Assembly: GCA_016284235.1 (NCBI GenBank)
Contig: JAEEOK010000091.1
Span: forward strand, 1-64,000
DNA from: Succinivibrionaceae bacterium
GTDB lineage: Bacteria; Pseudomonadota; Gammaproteobacteria; Enterobacterales; Succinivibrionaceae
DNA length: 64,000 bases
Direction: 5' to 3'
Part shown: piece after piece, positions 51,405-60,102 of the stretch
Numbering within the stretch: position 1 is the first letter of the stretch
How the letters are laid out: every line of letters begins with the position of its first letter
Notes under the pieces: generated by a model
Databases searched by the model: none
What the model was told of the DNA's origin: nothing
Seen by the model: the letters and a program-made list of their open reading frames with translations, nothing else
Translations under genes and position numbers: made by a program

Positions 51405-52310
51405 ATGCTGACACTCTAACGACTGAAGCCGAAGGATTCATGCTTCAAAGAACGATGCACAGCGAACTGCGTCTTACACGATCTCCTTGATAATTGCTTA
51501 CTCCTGCTTTTCACGGCAGGCTTATATTTCCGTATACCCCTCGGTATGTCAGTTCAGTCTTCAGACAAACCTTTATTCAGGATATTCACACCGGTATTCA
51601 TATCTGTTACGGCCTGTCTTCCCCTTTTTGCATAACTCACTTTCTGATTGCCGGACCTTTGTTACAGACAAGGCATGAACATCCGGGAGTTTGCTGATAA
51701 ACTGCTGCGGCGATTCATTCGGATATGCTCGAAATATTACGCCTTTATTCATACTGATAGCATCGGTCTTTTTTTGTATCTACGTAACTTTCTATCGTTT
51801 CAGAACTGACACCGCCCGCTGTACTTATAAAACATTTATGAGTCCTAAGAGCCGGCATTGCTCTAAACTGAAGGAATGCTTCTCTTAACGCCAATCAACA
51901 ATGATGAGCAACCTTTGATTAATCTGCCTCATTATATTTGGGATACTCACGGCAGGCGTACACTTACATAAATATGTACATGATCAATATTACATCCGAG
52001 AGCAGGAATTTAAATACCCTGTTTACTGAATTCAATGTCAGTAAGCTCTTTACCCTGTATTCAACCTGCAATGATGAATATTTTTCTGCGGTTTCCCGGA
52101 AAACACAAAATGACAGTTAACCAACAATGCTATTGTATGTATTGGTATGCCCTTACTCATTTTTCATGAATATATACTATCATATTTGCTGTGTTAGTCT
52201 ACACTTTATCTGCACACTGAAAAAACAACAGCCACTCCTGCGGTTAAAACCGCGTGTTTCACGCCTGCAGGGATTACAAAAAGATAACCTCATTTCCTGC
52301 AGAAATACTA
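51405..52310 (-). pseudogene. Decayed IS200/IS605-family element (TnpA and TnpB-tail remnants)
   Basis: Minus-strand fragments IDHVHIYVS, RLIKGCSSL, AMPALRTHKCFISTAGGVSSETIESYVDTKKDRC (TnpA-like) and DMNTGVNILNKGLSE (TnpB C-terminus-like), with stops and frameshifts. Confidence 0.65.
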
Positions 52311-53187
52311 CAGTTTGCCATCATGATTTTTGGTGAATGAAGTTTTATTCAAATCAAGAATTGGTTTATACGGCGGATCAGAATAGTCCCCCGTTGAAGA
52401 ACTGTTTTCCGTAATTACAACTGTCTGATCTTTAAAAACAGGAAAACTCTCAAGGCTGTCGCAACCGTTGAATGCTCCGTTTATGTGCTTAATCCCGTTA
52501 AAATTAAAATCAGGAAGTCTGCGCAAAGATCTGCAGCCTTCGAACATTCCACAGAGATTTAAAACTCTTGATGTATCAAAATACGGTATTTTTTCCAGTA
52601 GACTGCAGCCGGAAAACATTCTGTCAACTACGCTGATTTTACGGGAATTGCAGATCTCACATACGGTAAGTGCCGAACAGTTCTTAAATAATGCTGCAGC
52701 AGTCTCAAGTTCAGGAACATTAAAGAACATTGCCTGTTTGAGACTGACACAGTTCATAAACACCCCGTCGGCATACGCAACCTTCGGTATGTTATAAAAA
52801 ACAGCACGTTCAAGGGATGTACAGTTGCTGAACATAAACTGTATATTTTCAGCATCCTGCATACCTACAAGGTTTGCTTCTGCCAGCGAGGTGCATCCGT
52901 CAAATGTTTTAGTAAAAATCTTAACTCTGGATGTATCAAGTTCCGGAAGTTCTTTCAGTGCGGAGCAGTTCTGAAACATTCCCTCAACATTAAATGTCAT
53001 TGAAGTATTAAACCGGGGGATCCTGCAAAGACTGACACAGTCGGCAAACATATAATCCATGGATACAACATTTTCCGTGTTGAAGTCTGGAACGTGCTGC
53101 AGTTTCCTGCACCCTTTAAACATTTCAGATGTAGATTTAACCTTTGAAATGTCAAAAAGTGAAACATTTCTGAGATTTTCACAATTA
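52308..53187 (-). pseudogene. 3' part of a DUF285 gene interrupted by the transposon
   Basis: FFNCENLRNVSLFDISKVKSTSEMFKGC...; rejoins in frame with 58673-60102. Confidence 0.93.
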
Positions 53188-53195
53188 AAAAACAA
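53188..53195. repeat. 8-bp target-site duplication, left copy
   Basis: AAAAACAA, identical to 58673-58680. Confidence 0.93.
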
Positions 53196-53232
53196 GGCTC
53201 TGTTCTGGAAAAGTGTTGATGCCGAAAAGTGA
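53196..53232 (+). repeat. Left terminal inverted repeat
   Basis: GGCTCTGTTCTGGAAAAGTGTTGATGCCGAAAAGTGA, the exact reverse complement of 58636-58672. Confidence 0.96.
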
Positions 53233-53257
53233 ACACGGTATCTATGACATAAAAAGT

Positions 53258-53310
53258 CCTCTCAAATTTTGATGCTCCATGTTTGATGTCATGTTTCAAG
53301 ATTTGAGAGG
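53258..53310. repeat. Hairpin in the left subterminal region of the transposon
   Basis: CCTCTCAAAT (53258-53267) and ATTTGAGAGG (53301-53310). Confidence 0.7.
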
Positions 53311-53465
53311 ATGTTAAATTTTATCAATATCACATAAGTTATCATTGTCATGATTTCTATCATTCTTTAATCAATCTAACATAATTATCAGATTTCAATT
53401 GAAGTATATTGTTCACAAATGTATCATTTGTATATTGTATAAATAGTGATACGTAATTCTAAATA

Positions 53466-56400
53466 TTGAGATATGCTATGACAGATAAAGATTATATTAA
53501 AAACCTTTTAGTGATAATGGGTTTGGCTAAAAATAATGTGTTACCAAATAATGAAAATCAATATGATATTCAACATGAAATATATGAAGATGCTATTAAT
53601 AATTATAAGATAAGGGTTAATCTTACAGATGAGGAAATAGATTATCCAAATGATATTAACGGTTGGGAACGTAATAACAATTTTAATCAACCAGAAAATT
53701 TTGTGGTTTTAGAATGTGTTCACAGATTGTTAAAAAAGGGTTATAGAGCAACTGATATTGAATTAGAAAAAGAATGGCACTTAGGGCATGATTCTAAAAG
53801 TGGAAGATGCGATATAATTGTTTACGAACCTATTCATTCTGAAAATAATCAAGAAACAAAAAAAGTTTTATGCATTATTGAATGCAAAACATTTGGAAAT
53901 GAATTTAATAAAGAATTAAATAATTTAAAAAATGATGGAGGTCAGTTATTTTCTTATTTACAACAAGAAAGATCATGTAAATGGCTAATTCTTTATGCAT
54001 CAAAATATGATGATACAGATAAAGAAATGAAATATCAAATAGCCACAATTAAATCAACTGATGACCAAAATTTGATATTATTATCAGAAAATAATAAAAA
54101 ATCAGATAAAAATTCAGATATAAAATTATATATAAATGCTGAAACAACAGATGGTTTATTTAATGTTTGGAAAAATACATATGATGGTCAAATTTTAGGT
54201 GATGTGATCTTCTGTCAAGATACTAAAGCATATGAAATAGGTATTAAACCTTTATTAAAACGTGAACTTAAAGATTTTGATGATTCCGGGAAAATTATTA
54301 ATGGATTTGAAGAAATATTAAGACATAATAATGTTTCTGATAAAGAAAATGCTTTTAATCGTTTAATTGCATTATTTATTTGTAAATTAGTTGATGAAAT
54401 AACGAAAACCGATGATGATGTAGTCGAGTTTCAGTATAAGGTTGGAACTGATACATATGAAACATTGCAAGATAGACTTCAAAGACTTCATAAAGAAGGT
54501 ATGGATAAATTTATGAAGGAAGAAATTCTTTATATATCAGATGATTATCCTGATAACATAATTCAGCAGTATACAAATAAATCTAATCGGGATGAATTGA
54601 TAAAAGATTTAAAACAAACTATAAGAATTTTAAAATTTTATACTAATAATGATTTTGCTTTTAAAGATGTGCATAATAAAGAATTATTCTATCAAAATGG
54701 TAAACTATTAGTTGAAGTTATTGAATTATTTCAAAATTATAAAATTATTGGTTCCAATAAACTTCAATTATTGGGTGATTTATTTGAAAAATTGTTAGAT
54801 AAAGGTTTTAAACAGAATGAGGGACAATTTTTTACTCCAACTCCAATAACAAGATTTATTTGGAAATCATTACCATTAGATAAAATTATTTTTGAGAATG
54901 GAAAGCATAAATACCCTAAAATTATTGATTATGCCTGCGGAGCAGGACATTTCTTAACTGAAGGTATTGAAGAAATAAAACAATTACTAACTAAAAAAAA
55001 TATAAAAGAAGAGAATTGGTATAAAGATAATATCTACGGTATAGAAAAAGATTATCGATTATCTAGAGTATCTAAGGTGTCTATGTATATGCATGGTGCT
55101 GGTGATTCAAATATTATTTTTGGTGATGGATTAGAAAATGATAAAGGTGTTGAAAATAATTTATTTGATATTTTAGTTGCTAATCCTCCTTATTCAGTTA
55201 AAGGATTTAAACCACATTTGAATCTGAAAAATAATAAACTTGATATTATTGACTATATTTCAAATGATGGCTCTGAAATCGAAGTTTGTTTTGTTGAACG
55301 TATATCTCAATTATTAAAACCAAAAGGAATCGCATCTGTAATTTTACCAAGTTCATTACTGTCAAATATTAGTAACAGTTATGTCAAAGCAAGAGAGATA
55401 ATTCTGAAGAATTTTTACATACGAGGAATAACTTCATTTGGAAATTTAACTTTTGGTGCTACTGGTACAAATACAGTAGTTTTATTTCTAGAAAAATTTA
55501 ATGAACCTCCTAAAAAGATGTATTTACATAAAGATAGTGTAAATGCAATTTTTAATAATGAAAACTTAGATGAATGGGAAGATAAAGAAATTTTAACTAA
55601 TTATCTTAATCAAATTGATGTTGATATTGATTTTTATAAATCGTTTATTTCACAGAAATTGTTATTGTCTAAACTAAAGAGAAATAAACATTTTAGTATA
55701 TATGTTCAATCTTATGGGAATTCATCTGATGTTGTAAAATTATTAAATTCAAAATCTTATAAAAAGTTAAATAAAAAAGAACAATATGCTAAATATTTGG
55801 AGAATCTTTATAAATACATATCTCCTATTGAAAGGGAGAAGGTTTTTTACTTTTCTTTAATATATAAACAAAAAACTATAATTGTTAAATCACCAACTGA
55901 TAATAAACCTCAACAGGAATTTTTAGGTTATAAATGGTCAAACAGAAAAGGTGCTGAAGGAATACAAATTATAAAAATGGGTGGAAAACTGTTTGATCCT
56001 GCACATAATGATTATGCATCTGATTATATCAGAAATTCTTTTAATTCTGATTATCTCCCTGATTCAGAATATTCTAAATGTGTAAACACAAAGAATATGA
56101 TTGATTTTTCCAGAGATACGTTTAATAAAGAATTTAATTTATCAAATAACAAGAGTACTAATATTTTTTCTAAATATCTAAAAGTTGAATTAAATACTGT
56201 TGCAAGTTTAAAGGGTGGTGATAATTTTGATCCTAATTATCAAGGTAATACAAATAACACTTATATTCCATTTTATAAAGTAGGAGATATGAATATATCT
56301 GGTAATGAATATTGGATGAATAATGCTAGTAATTATGTCGATTTTAATACATTAACAAATATATTAAAAGCAACAATATTTGATGTTAATACAATAATAT

Positions 56401-57290
56401 TTCCTAAAGTTGGAATGGCAATACATACTAACAAAAAAAGAATTTTGTCTAGACAATCTGCAATAGACAATAATACTATGGCAGTTTGGTCAAAAGATAA
56501 TAAAATACTTTTACCTTTGTATTTGTATGAGTATCTCGTTAATTTTGTTGAATTAAAAAATTATTCATCTGAATCAAACCCTCCATCAATATCGCAATCT
56601 AACTTTGGAAAATTATTAATTCCTCTACCACCATTACAAATTCAGCAACAAATAGTTGCAGATTGTAATAAAATTGAAAACAATTTTAAAAAAATTAAAA
56701 ATAAAATTAATAAATGCAATCGTATTATTGAAAAAATATTTAAACTTTTAGACAAACATTCTTCTCAAGGGCAATTATACAGATTAGATAATAATACTTA
56801 TTTTGACCTTTCCATAGGTAAGAGAGTATTAAATAAACAATTGGTTCAAAATGCTAATATACCTGTTTACAGTGCTAACGTAAAAGAACCTTTTGGATAT
56901 ATTAATCAATTATTATCTAATTTAACAAATTTTACTACTCCATCAATTTTATGGGGTATTGATGGGGATTGGATGACTAATTATATTCCTGCAAATTTAA
57001 AATTTTACCCTACAGATCATTGTGGTGTTTTAAGATGTAATACACCAAATATCAACCCATATTATCTTTGTCATATACTTGAAACTGAGGGTACAAAATT
57101 GGGATTCAGTCGTAGTTTAAGAGCATCATTAGATAGAGTTAAAAATATAACTTTTAAAGTATGTTCACGAAAATATCAAGATAAGATGATTGCTAGAATT
57201 GAAATTTTAAATCAAATGATTTTACAATTATCTAATTCTTTAAAATCATACGATCAGCAAATTAAAAAAGTTTTAGAAAAGTATTTATAA
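53466..57290 (+). CDS. Single-chain restriction-methylation-specificity protein (Type IIG / fused Type I-like)
   Basis: N-terminal nuclease-like RCDIIVYEP...VLCIIECKT; N6-MTase motifs GQFFTPTPITRFIW, DYACGAGHFL, NPPY; two C-terminal specificity-like domains ending LIPLPPLQIQQQIVADCNKIE and a second half. Confidence 0.9.
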   Translation: MRYAMTDKDYIKNLLVIMGLAKNNVLPNNENQYDIQHEIYEDAINNYKIRVNLTDEEIDYPNDINGWERNNNFNQPENFVVLECVHRLLKKGYRATDIELEKEWHLGHDSKSGRCDIIVYEPIHSENNQETKKVLCIIECKTFGNEFNKELNNLKNDGGQLFSYLQQERSCKWLILYASKYDDTDKEMKYQIATIKSTDDQNLILLSENNKKSDKNSDIKLYINAETTDGLFNVWKNTYDGQILGDVIFCQDTKAYEIGIKPLLKRELKDFDDSGKIINGFEEILRHNNVSDKENAFNRLIALFICKLVDEITKTDDDVVEFQYKVGTDTYETLQDRLQRLHKEGMDKFMKEEILYISDDYPDNIIQQYTNKSNRDELIKDLKQTIRILKFYTNNDFAFKDVHNKELFYQNGKLLVEVIELFQNYKIIGSNKLQLLGDLFEKLLDKGFKQNEGQFFTPTPITRFIWKSLPLDKIIFENGKHKYPKIIDYACGAGHFLTEGIEEIKQLLTKKNIKEENWYKDNIYGIEKDYRLSRVSKVSMYMHGAGDSNIIFGDGLENDKGVENNLFDILVANPPYSVKGFKPHLNLKNNKLDIIDYISNDGSEIEVCFVERISQLLKPKGIASVILPSSLLSNISNSYVKAREIILKNFYIRGITSFGNLTFGATGTNTVVLFLEKFNEPPKKMYLHKDSVNAIFNNENLDEWEDKEILTNYLNQIDVDIDFYKSFISQKLLLSKLKRNKHFSIYVQSYGNSSDVVKLLNSKSYKKLNKKEQYAKYLENLYKYISPIEREKVFYFSLIYKQKTIIVKSPTDNKPQQEFLGYKWSNRKGAEGIQIIKMGGKLFDPAHNDYASDYIRNSFNSDYLPDSEYSKCVNTKNMIDFSRDTFNKEFNLSNNKSTNIFSKYLKVELNTVASLKGGDNFDPNYQGNTNNTYIPFYKVGDMNISGNEYWMNNASNYVDFNTLTNILKATIFDVNTIIFPKVGMAIHTNKKRILSRQSAIDNNTMAVWSKDNKILLPLYLYEYLVNFVELKNYSSESNPPSISQSNFGKLLIPLPPLQIQQQIVADCNKIENNFKKIKNKINKCNRIIEKIFKLLDKHSSQGQLYRLDNNTYFDLSIGKRVLNKQLVQNANIPVYSANVKEPFGYINQLLSNLTNFTTPSILWGIDGDWMTNYIPANLKFYPTDHCGVLRCNTPNINPYYLCHILETEGTKLGFSRSLRASLDRVKNITFKVCSRKYQDKMIARIEILNQMILQLSNSLKSYDQQIKKVLEKYL

Positions 57291-57335
57291 TTAAACTTAT
57301 ATTTTGATACAATATAAACAACTATTTTGGTTCGT

Positions 57336-58394
57336 TTATACTGGAATCGCATCTCTCAAATTCACTTTATACCCTCTGGAATTGCAGAGGGTAGAACATA
57401 CAAACTCTTTAAGAATCTTTGCTTTTTCAATTATTGATTCTTTAGCGATATTAATAAAGTTGTGGTATACCACATAGTTGTTAAGATATTTGGTAGCCAC
57501 ACCTTTGAAAAGGTCGTTAATCATGCGTTTTAACTCGCTATGATAACTATTTATCTTTTGGATATTAAACATTCCGTTCTTATGTTTACCGTTTTCAATC
57601 TTAATATGAGTCAGATTGTTGTCTTCTGCAATCTGATCATAACTGTTTAAACTGTCAGTGACAAAGAATGAACCTTCTTCAATCCTACCTTTAATAAATC
57701 CTGATAATTCATCAGTAGTAGGTCTGCCCAGATTAGTTATTTTACCGATAGAAAGACCATCAAGATTAACTGAACATGGAACACAGACTAATTCATCTGA
57801 TATACCTCTAACGTGGTTAGAGCCACCTCTTTTATGTGGTAATCTGGTGAGTATATCAGGGTTTTTACAGCCTTTAAAACTCAATCCAAAGTAGGTTTCA
57901 TCAGATTCAATAATACCATTCAGCACAACTTCGTTGTGCATATTCTGGAGAGCATCTAAAATCTTATGTCTCCAATCAAAAGATGAAGATTTAGAAATTC
58001 TGCAACAGGTTGCACACTGTCTAATGGTCATTTTATGCATCATACAGTCACAGTATTTTAACAGGGTATCATAAGATATTTTCATTCCATAGAGAATAGT
58101 ATTATTAGTCCATGTATAAGTATGTTTACAGTCTTTACATATGAATCTCTGTCTACCGTCTTTATGACCGTTTTTAACTACTCTATGAGATTGACAATGA
58201 GGGCAATATGGTCTGTCACCTAATGATGTTGCTTTCCTTTTAAGTATTAGTTCTTTGAATGATTTAATTGGATCCACAATAACAGTTTCAGGTTTTGAAC
58301 CAGTAAGAATCATCATGACTTCAGTCAGTTCATCAACATTAAGGTTTCTAAGCATTTCTACTATCGGCTTTAACTTCATTTTCATATCATTCAC
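57336..58394 (-). CDS. IS1595-family transposase
   Basis: Zinc ribbon CPHCQSHRVVKNGHKDGRQRFICKDCKHTYTWTNNTILYGMKI; catalytic-region motifs ESDETYFG, VTDSLNSY, NSYHSELKRMI. Confidence 0.95.
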   Translation of the reverse strand: MNDMKMKLKPIVEMLRNLNVDELTEVMMILTGSKPETVIVDPIKSFKELILKRKATSLGDRPYCPHCQSHRVVKNGHKDGRQRFICKDCKHTYTWTNNTILYGMKISYDTLLKYCDCMMHKMTIRQCATCCRISKSSSFDWRHKILDALQNMHNEVVLNGIIESDETYFGLSFKGCKNPDILTRLPHKRGGSNHVRGISDELVCVPCSVNLDGLSIGKITNLGRPTTDELSGFIKGRIEEGSFFVTDSLNSYDQIAEDNNLTHIKIENGKHKNGMFNIQKINSYHSELKRMINDLFKGVATKYLNNYVVYHNFINIAKESIIEKAKILKEFVCSTLCNSRGYKVNLRDAIPV

Positions 58395-58635
58395 CTTTAT
58401 ATTGTCTTCTATATATCATTATATTCAGCAAATATAAATAACATAGGAAATAATATGAATTGTTTATGAAATTATGATCTAAATCACCGACAGTTAGTGT
58501 CTTTTATGTCTAATTTGATTTGTTATGGAGTATTTATATAGATAATGTATATAAAATATCATGTGTGTAGAATACGTTGATAAATAATTAGTAACATGAC
58601 AAATTATATACATTTAATGATTATGACGGTTTATG

Positions 58636-58672
58636 TCACTTTTCGGCATCAACACTTTTCCAGAACAGAGCC
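58636..58672 (-). repeat. Right terminal inverted repeat
   Basis: TCACTTTTCGGCATCAACACTTTTCCAGAACAGAGCC. Confidence 0.96.
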
Positions 58673-60102
58673 AAAAACAAACCGGATAGGTTTCTCACCT
58701 CAGAAGAATTGCAGAGATTTACCATATCAAGAGTCCGGCACCCCGCAAACATCCTCGTTATATTCCTCGCCGACGAAAGATCAATTTCACCGGTATTTTC
58801 AATACTCTGGCAGTTCACGTACATTTCTGACAAATCAACCGCATCAGCAGTATTGAACATAGGGACGGATACCAGAGAGGAACATTCCGCAAAAAAACCG
58901 GAAAGATTCCTGCATCTCTGCAGATCTAAAGAAGGGACAAACTTTAGACTTTTACAGCCGAGAAACATATGATGCATATCAGTAATCTGATTGGTATCAA
59001 ACCATTTAACTGATTTCAGTTCTGAACAGTTGAGAAAAAGTCCTGCTGCAGAATGGCATCTCTGACCGAAGGTAATAGCAAAATCGACATGCAGAAAAAC
59101 ATGCCTCTGCCCAAAAGGAAAGAACACATCAGCATTATTCCGATGCTGTTTTCGGAATTCCAGTTCGTAATATGTCCCGACAAAAGGAGAATTTGAATAC
59201 CATGTATTGCCGATCCTTTTGCATACAACATCGTAGTTGATAACAACTTCCTTTAACTTTCCCTCTATGATTGCTATCTGAATTTCATCTGTAAGATCAA
59301 GAATGCTGTTCAGCACAACAACACCATCTTCGGGAACGTTTCTTTTAACATACTCGATTTTAACGCCATCCTCACGATCTATTCTTGCCGAACAGACCGT
59401 AAGAACAGGGGCATTGTCTTCAGTTATAGATGTATCGACAACAAAATCTTTGATGTAGCAGACGTTGCTCATTTTAAATTTCGGCAGAGAATGCAGATTT
59501 CTGCATTCTTTGAACATACCCTCTGCCGTAATAACATTTTCAAGAAACATATCAGGAATGCACTCAAGTGCGGTGCATCCATGAAACGTATAATTAGCAA
59601 AAAGAAGACTTGATGTATCCATATGAGGTACTATTCTGAGATTAGTACAGCCCTCAAACAGATAGCTCATATCCAGAACCATGGATGTATTGAATGCAGG
59701 AACTTCAGTAAGAGAACTGCAGCCTGCAAACAAACCTGCCATATTCTCCACTCTGGAGGTATCAAGAAGCGGAACCTCGGTCAATCCGGCACAGTATGCA
59801 AATGCATAATTCATACTGCATACATGTCCTGTATCGAATTCTGGCACGCTGATGAGATTGGCACACCAATAGAAAAGATAATCGATGCTGTGACAGTCCG
59901 GTCCTATGACTATAGTAAAATCTATACTTTCCATTTCCTCTGTCAGAGAATAAAACGGAGAATCATAAGAACCCTTAAGATCATAATTGATCACAAGTGT
60001 AAAATTTCTGAAACTGCTGTTGTACACAGCAATAAAATTACATACATCACCAGGTGAATTCAAAATCACGCAAAGATGATTATCCTTCGATTCAGTTTCC
60101 AC
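58673..60102 (-). pseudogene. 5' part of a DUF285 gene interrupted by the transposon
   Basis: METESKDNHLCVILNSPGDV...NLSGLF; its natural continuation is at 53187. Confidence 0.93.

Follow-up and report, generated by a model that had tools for sequence, protein, structure and literature searches.

A small IS1595-family transposon with a complete Type IIG-like restriction-modification passenger, and a transposase clade in which such cargo recurs

Restriction-modification (R-M) systems move often, and their usual vehicles are plasmids, prophages, or large transposons, where the vehicle is not simply left unexplained. Tn7-like transposons are large, multi-protein, and often site-specific elements. 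Among the defence genes that they carry, R-M is the commonest cargo (Benler et al. 2021, PMC8649781). Transporter insertion sequences (tISs), in which a passenger gene with no part in transposition lies within an insertion sequence (IS), are also known, including some with methyltransferase passengers in another IS family (PMC11891212). In the IS1595 family, tISSag10/MTnSag1 and tISCpe8 carry lincosamide resistance between 25-bp terminal inverted repeats (TIRs) and 8-bp duplications, and MTnSag1 makes a circular intermediate (PMC5704250). R-M genes on insertion sequences and transposons have been noted in general terms (PMC4176335; PMC3031569), and R-M genes flanked by IS copies show composite-type movement, as in the PaeR7I experiment (PMC3031569). 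Here, we describe a 5,477-bp element at positions 53196-58672 of a 64,000-nucleotide stretch of a Succinivibrionaceae genome, probably from the rumen (GCA_016284235.1, contig JAEEOK010000091.1, positions 1 to 64,000, forward strand; hereafter the window), which holds one transposase gene and one R-M gene between its ends. The element is very probably an IS1595-family tIS with a complete R-M passenger, belonging to a transposase clade that R-M systems have entered repeatedly as cargo, i.e., a small mobile carrier of restriction. In the literature searched, with ISfinder and REBASE outside its scope, we found no paper on an IS1595-family tIS that carries R-M, nor on a clade whose members, as far as seen, mostly do so; an earlier notice in those two databases is possible.

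The element shares its transposase family with tISSag10/MTnSag1 and tISCpe8 (tISSag10 43-48% identical), in which 25-bp TIRs start GGCTCTGT, the target duplication is likewise 8 bp, and the passenger directly follows the transposase. They differ in carrying a single resistance gene within 1.7-2.0 kb, and the tISSag10 transposase falls on a branch separate from the R-M clade described below. With Tn7-like transposons the likeness is that R-M is carried as transposon cargo, but the window element is 5.5 kb long with a single transposase; it has no tnsABC-type set, its two substantial open reading frames (ORFs) encode just the IS1595 transposase and the R-M protein, and a Tn7-like identity was rejected. 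Likewise, PaeR7I offers a case of IS-linked R-M movement, whereas the window R-M gene sits inside one IS-type unit and not between two ISs; a composite transposon was rejected on the single transposase gene, the simple TIRs, and the lack of a flanking IS pair.

A preliminary description of this DNA, made from its letters and ORFs, had proposed perfect 37-bp TIRs, an 8-bp duplication on both sides, one IS1595-type transposase and one complete single-chain R-M protein in convergent orientation, and a marked AT-rich shift relative to the flanks, all of which were borne out. Its further suggestion, that such a unit could spread in mobile defence or addiction, stays a conjecture. The features, by position in the window, are as follows.

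52308..53195, minus strand: 3' part of the interrupted DUF285 gene (Pfam DUF285), in frame with the 5' part and contiguous with it in genomes G002 and G003
53188..53195, unstranded: left target-site duplication (TSD), 8 bp, AAAAACAA, an exact match to 58673-58680 by direct sequence
53196..53232, plus strand: left TIR, 37 bp, 100% complementary to 58636-58672; begins GGCTCTGTT, as other clade elements do
53239..53329, unstranded: subterminal hairpin (CCTCTCAAAT...ATTTGAGAGG) with a T-run on the minus strand (inverted repeat I3; fold and conservation)
53478..57290, plus strand: single-chain Type IIG-like R-M protein, 1,270 amino acids (aa) from ATG (PADLOC PDLC03624, Pfam, motifs)
53712..53990, plus strand: HSDR_N-like nuclease region with D...ExK (GRCDIIV ... 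CIIECK); Pfam HSDR_N_2, E 3.4e-5, 24.3 bits (cut-off 25)
54765..55619, plus strand: N6_Mtase domain, in which motif I reads DYACGAGH and motif IV reads NPPY (Pfam, motifs)
56181..56708, plus strand: first target-recognition (Methylase_S) region; Pfam Methylase_S matches in two stretches, the second in the C-terminal part
57336..58385, minus strand: IS1595-family transposase, 349 aa from ATG 58385 (NF033547), convergent to the R-M gene
58636..58672, minus strand: right TIR, 37 bp, perfect complement of the left arm
58673..58680, unstranded: right TSD, 8 bp, AAAAACAA, by direct sequence
58673..60102, minus strand: 5' portion of the target, a DUF285/BspA-like repeat gene split by the element (Pfam DUF285; unoccupied orthologues in G002 and G003)

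The 37-nt arms were the sole long perfect inverted repeat that an inverted-repeat search returned for the region, and together with the 8-bp direct target repeats they give 53196-58672 the ends characteristic of the IS1595 family. The R-M gene (53478-57290) lies wholly inside the TIRs as a passenger unrelated to transposition, which makes the element a tIS, and besides the two convergent genes it contains no other substantial ORFs. GC content is 26.7% inside the element (24.8% in the R-M gene, 33.4% in the transposase gene) vs 42.8% in the rest of the window. The two pieces of the target gene, 60102-58681 (474 codons) and 53195-52308 (296 codons with stop), share one frame, and excising the element with one copy of the duplication restores the DUF285 reading frame.

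Two genomes of the same genus as the window genome hold the orthologous gene uninterrupted, with its halves abutting exactly at the insertion point: G002:C16 (junction 2650|2649 of L172; 70% aa identity) and G003:C14 (junction 3183|3182 of L173; 52-61% aa identity). These empty sites bear on the suspicion, raised as a ground for doubt in the preliminary description, that the TIR/TSD arrangement is an assembly chimera. The window genome is in 133 contigs and 90.7% complete, and such a fragmented assembly could in principle have misjoined an R-M contig beside an IS. However, the TIRs are perfect, the TSD is exact, the insertion preserves the frame, the same architecture recurs in unrelated assemblies and complete plasmids, and uninterrupted orthologues at the very insertion point in two relatives indicate a real insertion; a misjoin is thus vanishingly improbable and, with the empty sites in G002 and G003, effectively refuted.

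The transposase matched the IS1595 hidden Markov model NF033547 at 168.6 bits (cut-off 75) and PF12762 (DDE_Tnp_IS1595) at 49 bits (cut-off 27), with the zinc-ribbon models NF050000 and NF048018 also above cut-off, and is thus an IS1595-type DDE transposase with an N-terminal zinc ribbon. The best start is ATG 58385 (349 aa), with GTG 58394 (352 aa) as the alternative. Residues D162, D244, N279, and K286 are invariant in the alignment of clade transposases (A1), in a D-D-N/E-K/R arrangement that we take to be the catalytic set.

The R-M protein consists of an N-terminal PD-(D/E)XK nuclease-like region, an N6-adenine methyltransferase, and two target-recognition regions, and so combines endonuclease, methyltransferase, and target recognition in one polypeptide, as Type IIG enzymes do. 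It matched the PADLOC Type IIG model PDLC03624 over its full length (940.6 bits, positions 16-1269 of 1271). The 1,274 aa of the preliminary description require the TTG start at 53466, while the likely start, ATG 53478, gives 1,270 aa; searches used 53484 onward. The closest solved structure by sequence is RM.BsaXI (8w0p, E 2.4e-27), a Type IIG/IIB enzyme that likewise joins nuclease and methylase in one chain. In BsaXI the specificity subunit is separate, whereas the window protein has its target-recognition regions in the same chain. A Type I assignment was rejected, as the protein has no HsdR helicase domain and the element no further large ORF, and membership in MADS or BREX systems was rejected on partial matches far below cut-offs.

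Whether such a gene still restricts is a fair question, since it could be dead or non-restricting cargo, effectively an orphan methyltransferase, on an element that persists by transposition only. The HSDR_N_2 match falls slightly below the Pfam cut-off (24.3 vs 25 bits), and among the relatives described below the N. gonorrhoeae cargo has suffered an internal deletion and two stops interrupt the L099 transposase. Against this, 1,270 codons stay open at 25% GC, and both the nuclease D...ExK, whose residues are kept in L123 and L122, and motifs I and IV of the methylase are unbroken and shared with relatives, so that we regard inactive cargo as rather unlikely.

The nearest relatives of the R-M protein found come from viral contig L123 (57% identity across most of the protein) and from G303 (about 32-40%); the transposase and the TIRs are absent from the surroundings of both, and no full-length homologue was found in the host bacterial family. 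The preliminary description had treated an R-M gene that always occurs without these TIRs as a mark against the transposon; the nearest relatives do sit outside such transposons, but this is harmless and marks the gene as foreign, acquired, and exchangeable cargo. On L123 (IMGVR_UViG_3300007961_000135), the relative lies near a serine recombinase-like gene, another mobile setting, and has a frame break towards its C-terminus.

The transposase by itself served as the query for related elements in the host family, and plasmid, phage, and viral collections supplied further ones. As the preliminary description had hoped for in support, these searches turned up relatives with the same kind of ends, at other sites, and with varied R-M cargo. 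The host family yielded two intact transposase relatives (44-48% identity), both bounded by related ends and both with R-M: G009:C41 carries Type III mod (514 aa) and res (704 aa) genes, enclosed by TIRs and an exact TSD, AATCTCTT, and G068:C31 has an 821-aa IIG enzyme with a fused specificity domain between perfect 26-bp TIRs, its 8-bp duplication matching but falling in a low-complexity T-run. ISCaje5 of Campylobacter coli is of the same clade (47-50% identity) and resembles the window element in its TIR, its TSD (ATTAATTT), and its site-specific DNA methyltransferase (N6_N4) with a helix-turn-helix (HTH) gene, beside a 188-aa ORF; it differs in R-M type and in that its methyltransferase gene points the same way as the transposase gene. 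The literature searched did not turn up a paper that names ISCaje5. A Neisseria gonorrhoeae element (L089:6830-9483, NZ_CP119142.1) has perfect 25-bp TIRs and the TSD TTCTATTT; an internal deletion fuses its truncated transposase to a methyltransferase remnant, followed by an open specificity-subunit gene. The gonococcal element is chromosomal, though its source records are listed as plasmids in the collection.

On the Helicobacter pylori plasmid pY95, an AlwI-type endonuclease and a D12 methyltransferase lie beside the transposase, with a single end remaining, while viral contig L099 carries a IIG methyltransferase and specificity subunit between near-perfect 38-bp TIRs. L099 (IMGVR_UViG_3300028886_000067) is a 104-kb contig classed as viral, and an R-M transposon within a phage genome is possible there. 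There are also two weaker remnants: in a Helicobacter heilmannii prophage a transposase fragment adjoins an 807-aa HSDR_N/N6_Mtase protein, and in G004:C16 another adjoins a D12 methyltransferase and a 293-aa endonuclease-like protein (PADLOC REase_II, 298.6 bits). A PDB sequence search with the 188-aa ISCaje5 ORF and the 293-aa G004 protein gave no meaningful match.

Type IIG enzymes, of no fewer than two unrelated kinds, are among the cargo of the clade, together with Type III systems and Type II pairs. In most elements the cargo occupies the slot from the transposase 3' end to the distal end, co-directional with the transposase in most and convergent in the window element; the exceptions in layout are the H. 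pylori endonuclease gene, which is upstream and divergent, and the second cargo half of ISCaje5, on the other strand. Separately, a 2.5-kb IS1595-type element (L104:6795-9303; TSD TAAAATTA) is a tIS that carries neither R-M nor resistance genes but two small genes, one for a protein with a tRNA_anti-like domain and one for a short membrane protein.

In a maximum-likelihood tree built from 28 IS1595-family transposases, all tested R-M carriers fell in one clade (support 95/95), together with a Desulfovibrio contig (L078) and the decayed G004:C28. R-M cargo was present in 7/8 readable clade rows vs 0/19 other IS1595 rows, and cargo state changes twice on the tree. Within about 4-5 kb of 29 non-clade IS1595 transposases, no homologues of the R-M types seen here were found. 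Resistance genes are found in association with the tISSag10/ISCco2 branch, and much of the distant outgroup consists of plain ~1.05-kb ISs with 8-bp duplications. This rule of clade and cargo predicts R-M in new clade members.

An ordinary tIS that picked up an R-M gene once and by chance might look much the same, if the clade association reflected sampling of Helicobacter, Campylobacter, and Neisseria, in which R-M is abundant. Passenger-carrying IS1595 elements are known (tISSag10/MTnSag1 and tISCpe8; PMC5704250), R-M genes are frequent mobile cargo (PMC8649781), and the independent clade members are few. Yet in several elements the R-M genes lie inside exact TIR and 8-bp TSD limits and not just close by, the contrast of 7/8 with 0/19 is steep, and it was the transposase alone, with cargo ignored, that led to both host-family members and to the viral-contig member. 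We therefore consider chance pickup quite improbable and favor the reading of a tIS from a repeatedly R-M-loaded clade.

Several points nevertheless weigh against that reading. The clade comprises nine independent members, plus remnants, and the Fisher test on the above counts (p 9e-6) treats related rows as independent. Three clade elements share related IIG or methyltransferase-plus-specificity (IIG/M+S) cargo, which implies fewer cargo events than elements. The decayed G004:C28 has small ORFs and no R-M, and the Desulfovibrio contig ends just past the transposase, so that any cargo would fall beyond it. Searches of 369 class genomes and the rest of 356 order genomes found no further clade members on which to try the prediction, and 198 genomes from the phylum of the Desulfovibrio match gave none either. 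The window genome has no near-full copy elsewhere, the sole full copy being that at 53196-58672, and we infer enzyme activity, defence, addiction, and current mobility from sequence.

As we picture it, the transposase would recognise the GGCTCTGTT... ends and insert the unit with an 8-bp duplication, while the Type IIG-like enzyme would methylate an adenine motif in host DNA and cut unmodified incoming DNA. A distinct IS1595 clade, apart from the resistance-carrying tISSag10/MTnSag1 branch, has very probably been loaded time and again with R-M systems of unrelated types, which for the most part sit beyond the transposase 3' end on the side of the distal end, and the R-M cargo could plausibly repay the element by defending the host and by the price of its loss. 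The clade relatives found in other gut and mucosal bacteria bring R-M systems unlike this one, so that the branch looks like a small vehicle for DNA-cutting defence. A bolder extension, conceivable but somewhat doubtful, is that this monophyletic, single-transposase lineage is a specialised R-M shuttle whose range takes in gut and mucosal bacteria as well as a phage-like contig, with whole systems of different types swapped in one slot and loss of an otherwise dispensable element made costly. A minimal transposon lineage repeatedly loaded with different complete R-M systems would be a concrete small vehicle for R-M movement, and would make the idea of selfish or addictive R-M testable, by comparing the persistence of elements with an R-M passenger and with a neutral one.

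Partial matches in the window genome comprise one right end, on C126, and three left ends, on C3, C80, and C131, that enclose something else. The right end (L034:5518-5996) is decayed, 91% identical over 479 bp, with a broken transposase, and its position at another site points to past transposition in this genome. The first ~132 bp of the element, including the strong hairpin, are common to three other left ends of this genome with unlike interiors (L035 from 3517; L036 up to 4478, minus strand; L037 from 3765); the hairpin is possibly an end-insulating terminator that halts transcription out of the element, or a transposase-binding region. The genome also holds ~150-bp units resembling miniature inverted-repeat transposable elements (MITEs), with GGCTCTGTT-type ends (L036:4136-4287 and L149:5118-5269), one of which adjoins an element end. 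In the same-genus genome G002, a related end (GGCTCTGTTCAGGAAAAGTGTTGATT...) occurs in ~12 copies, mostly at contig breaks (contigs C63, C98, C200, C213, C229, C324, C348, and others; L133-L139), and probably belongs to a high-copy IS1595-type element or MITE with an unassembled interior; the seven copies read are near-identical inside.

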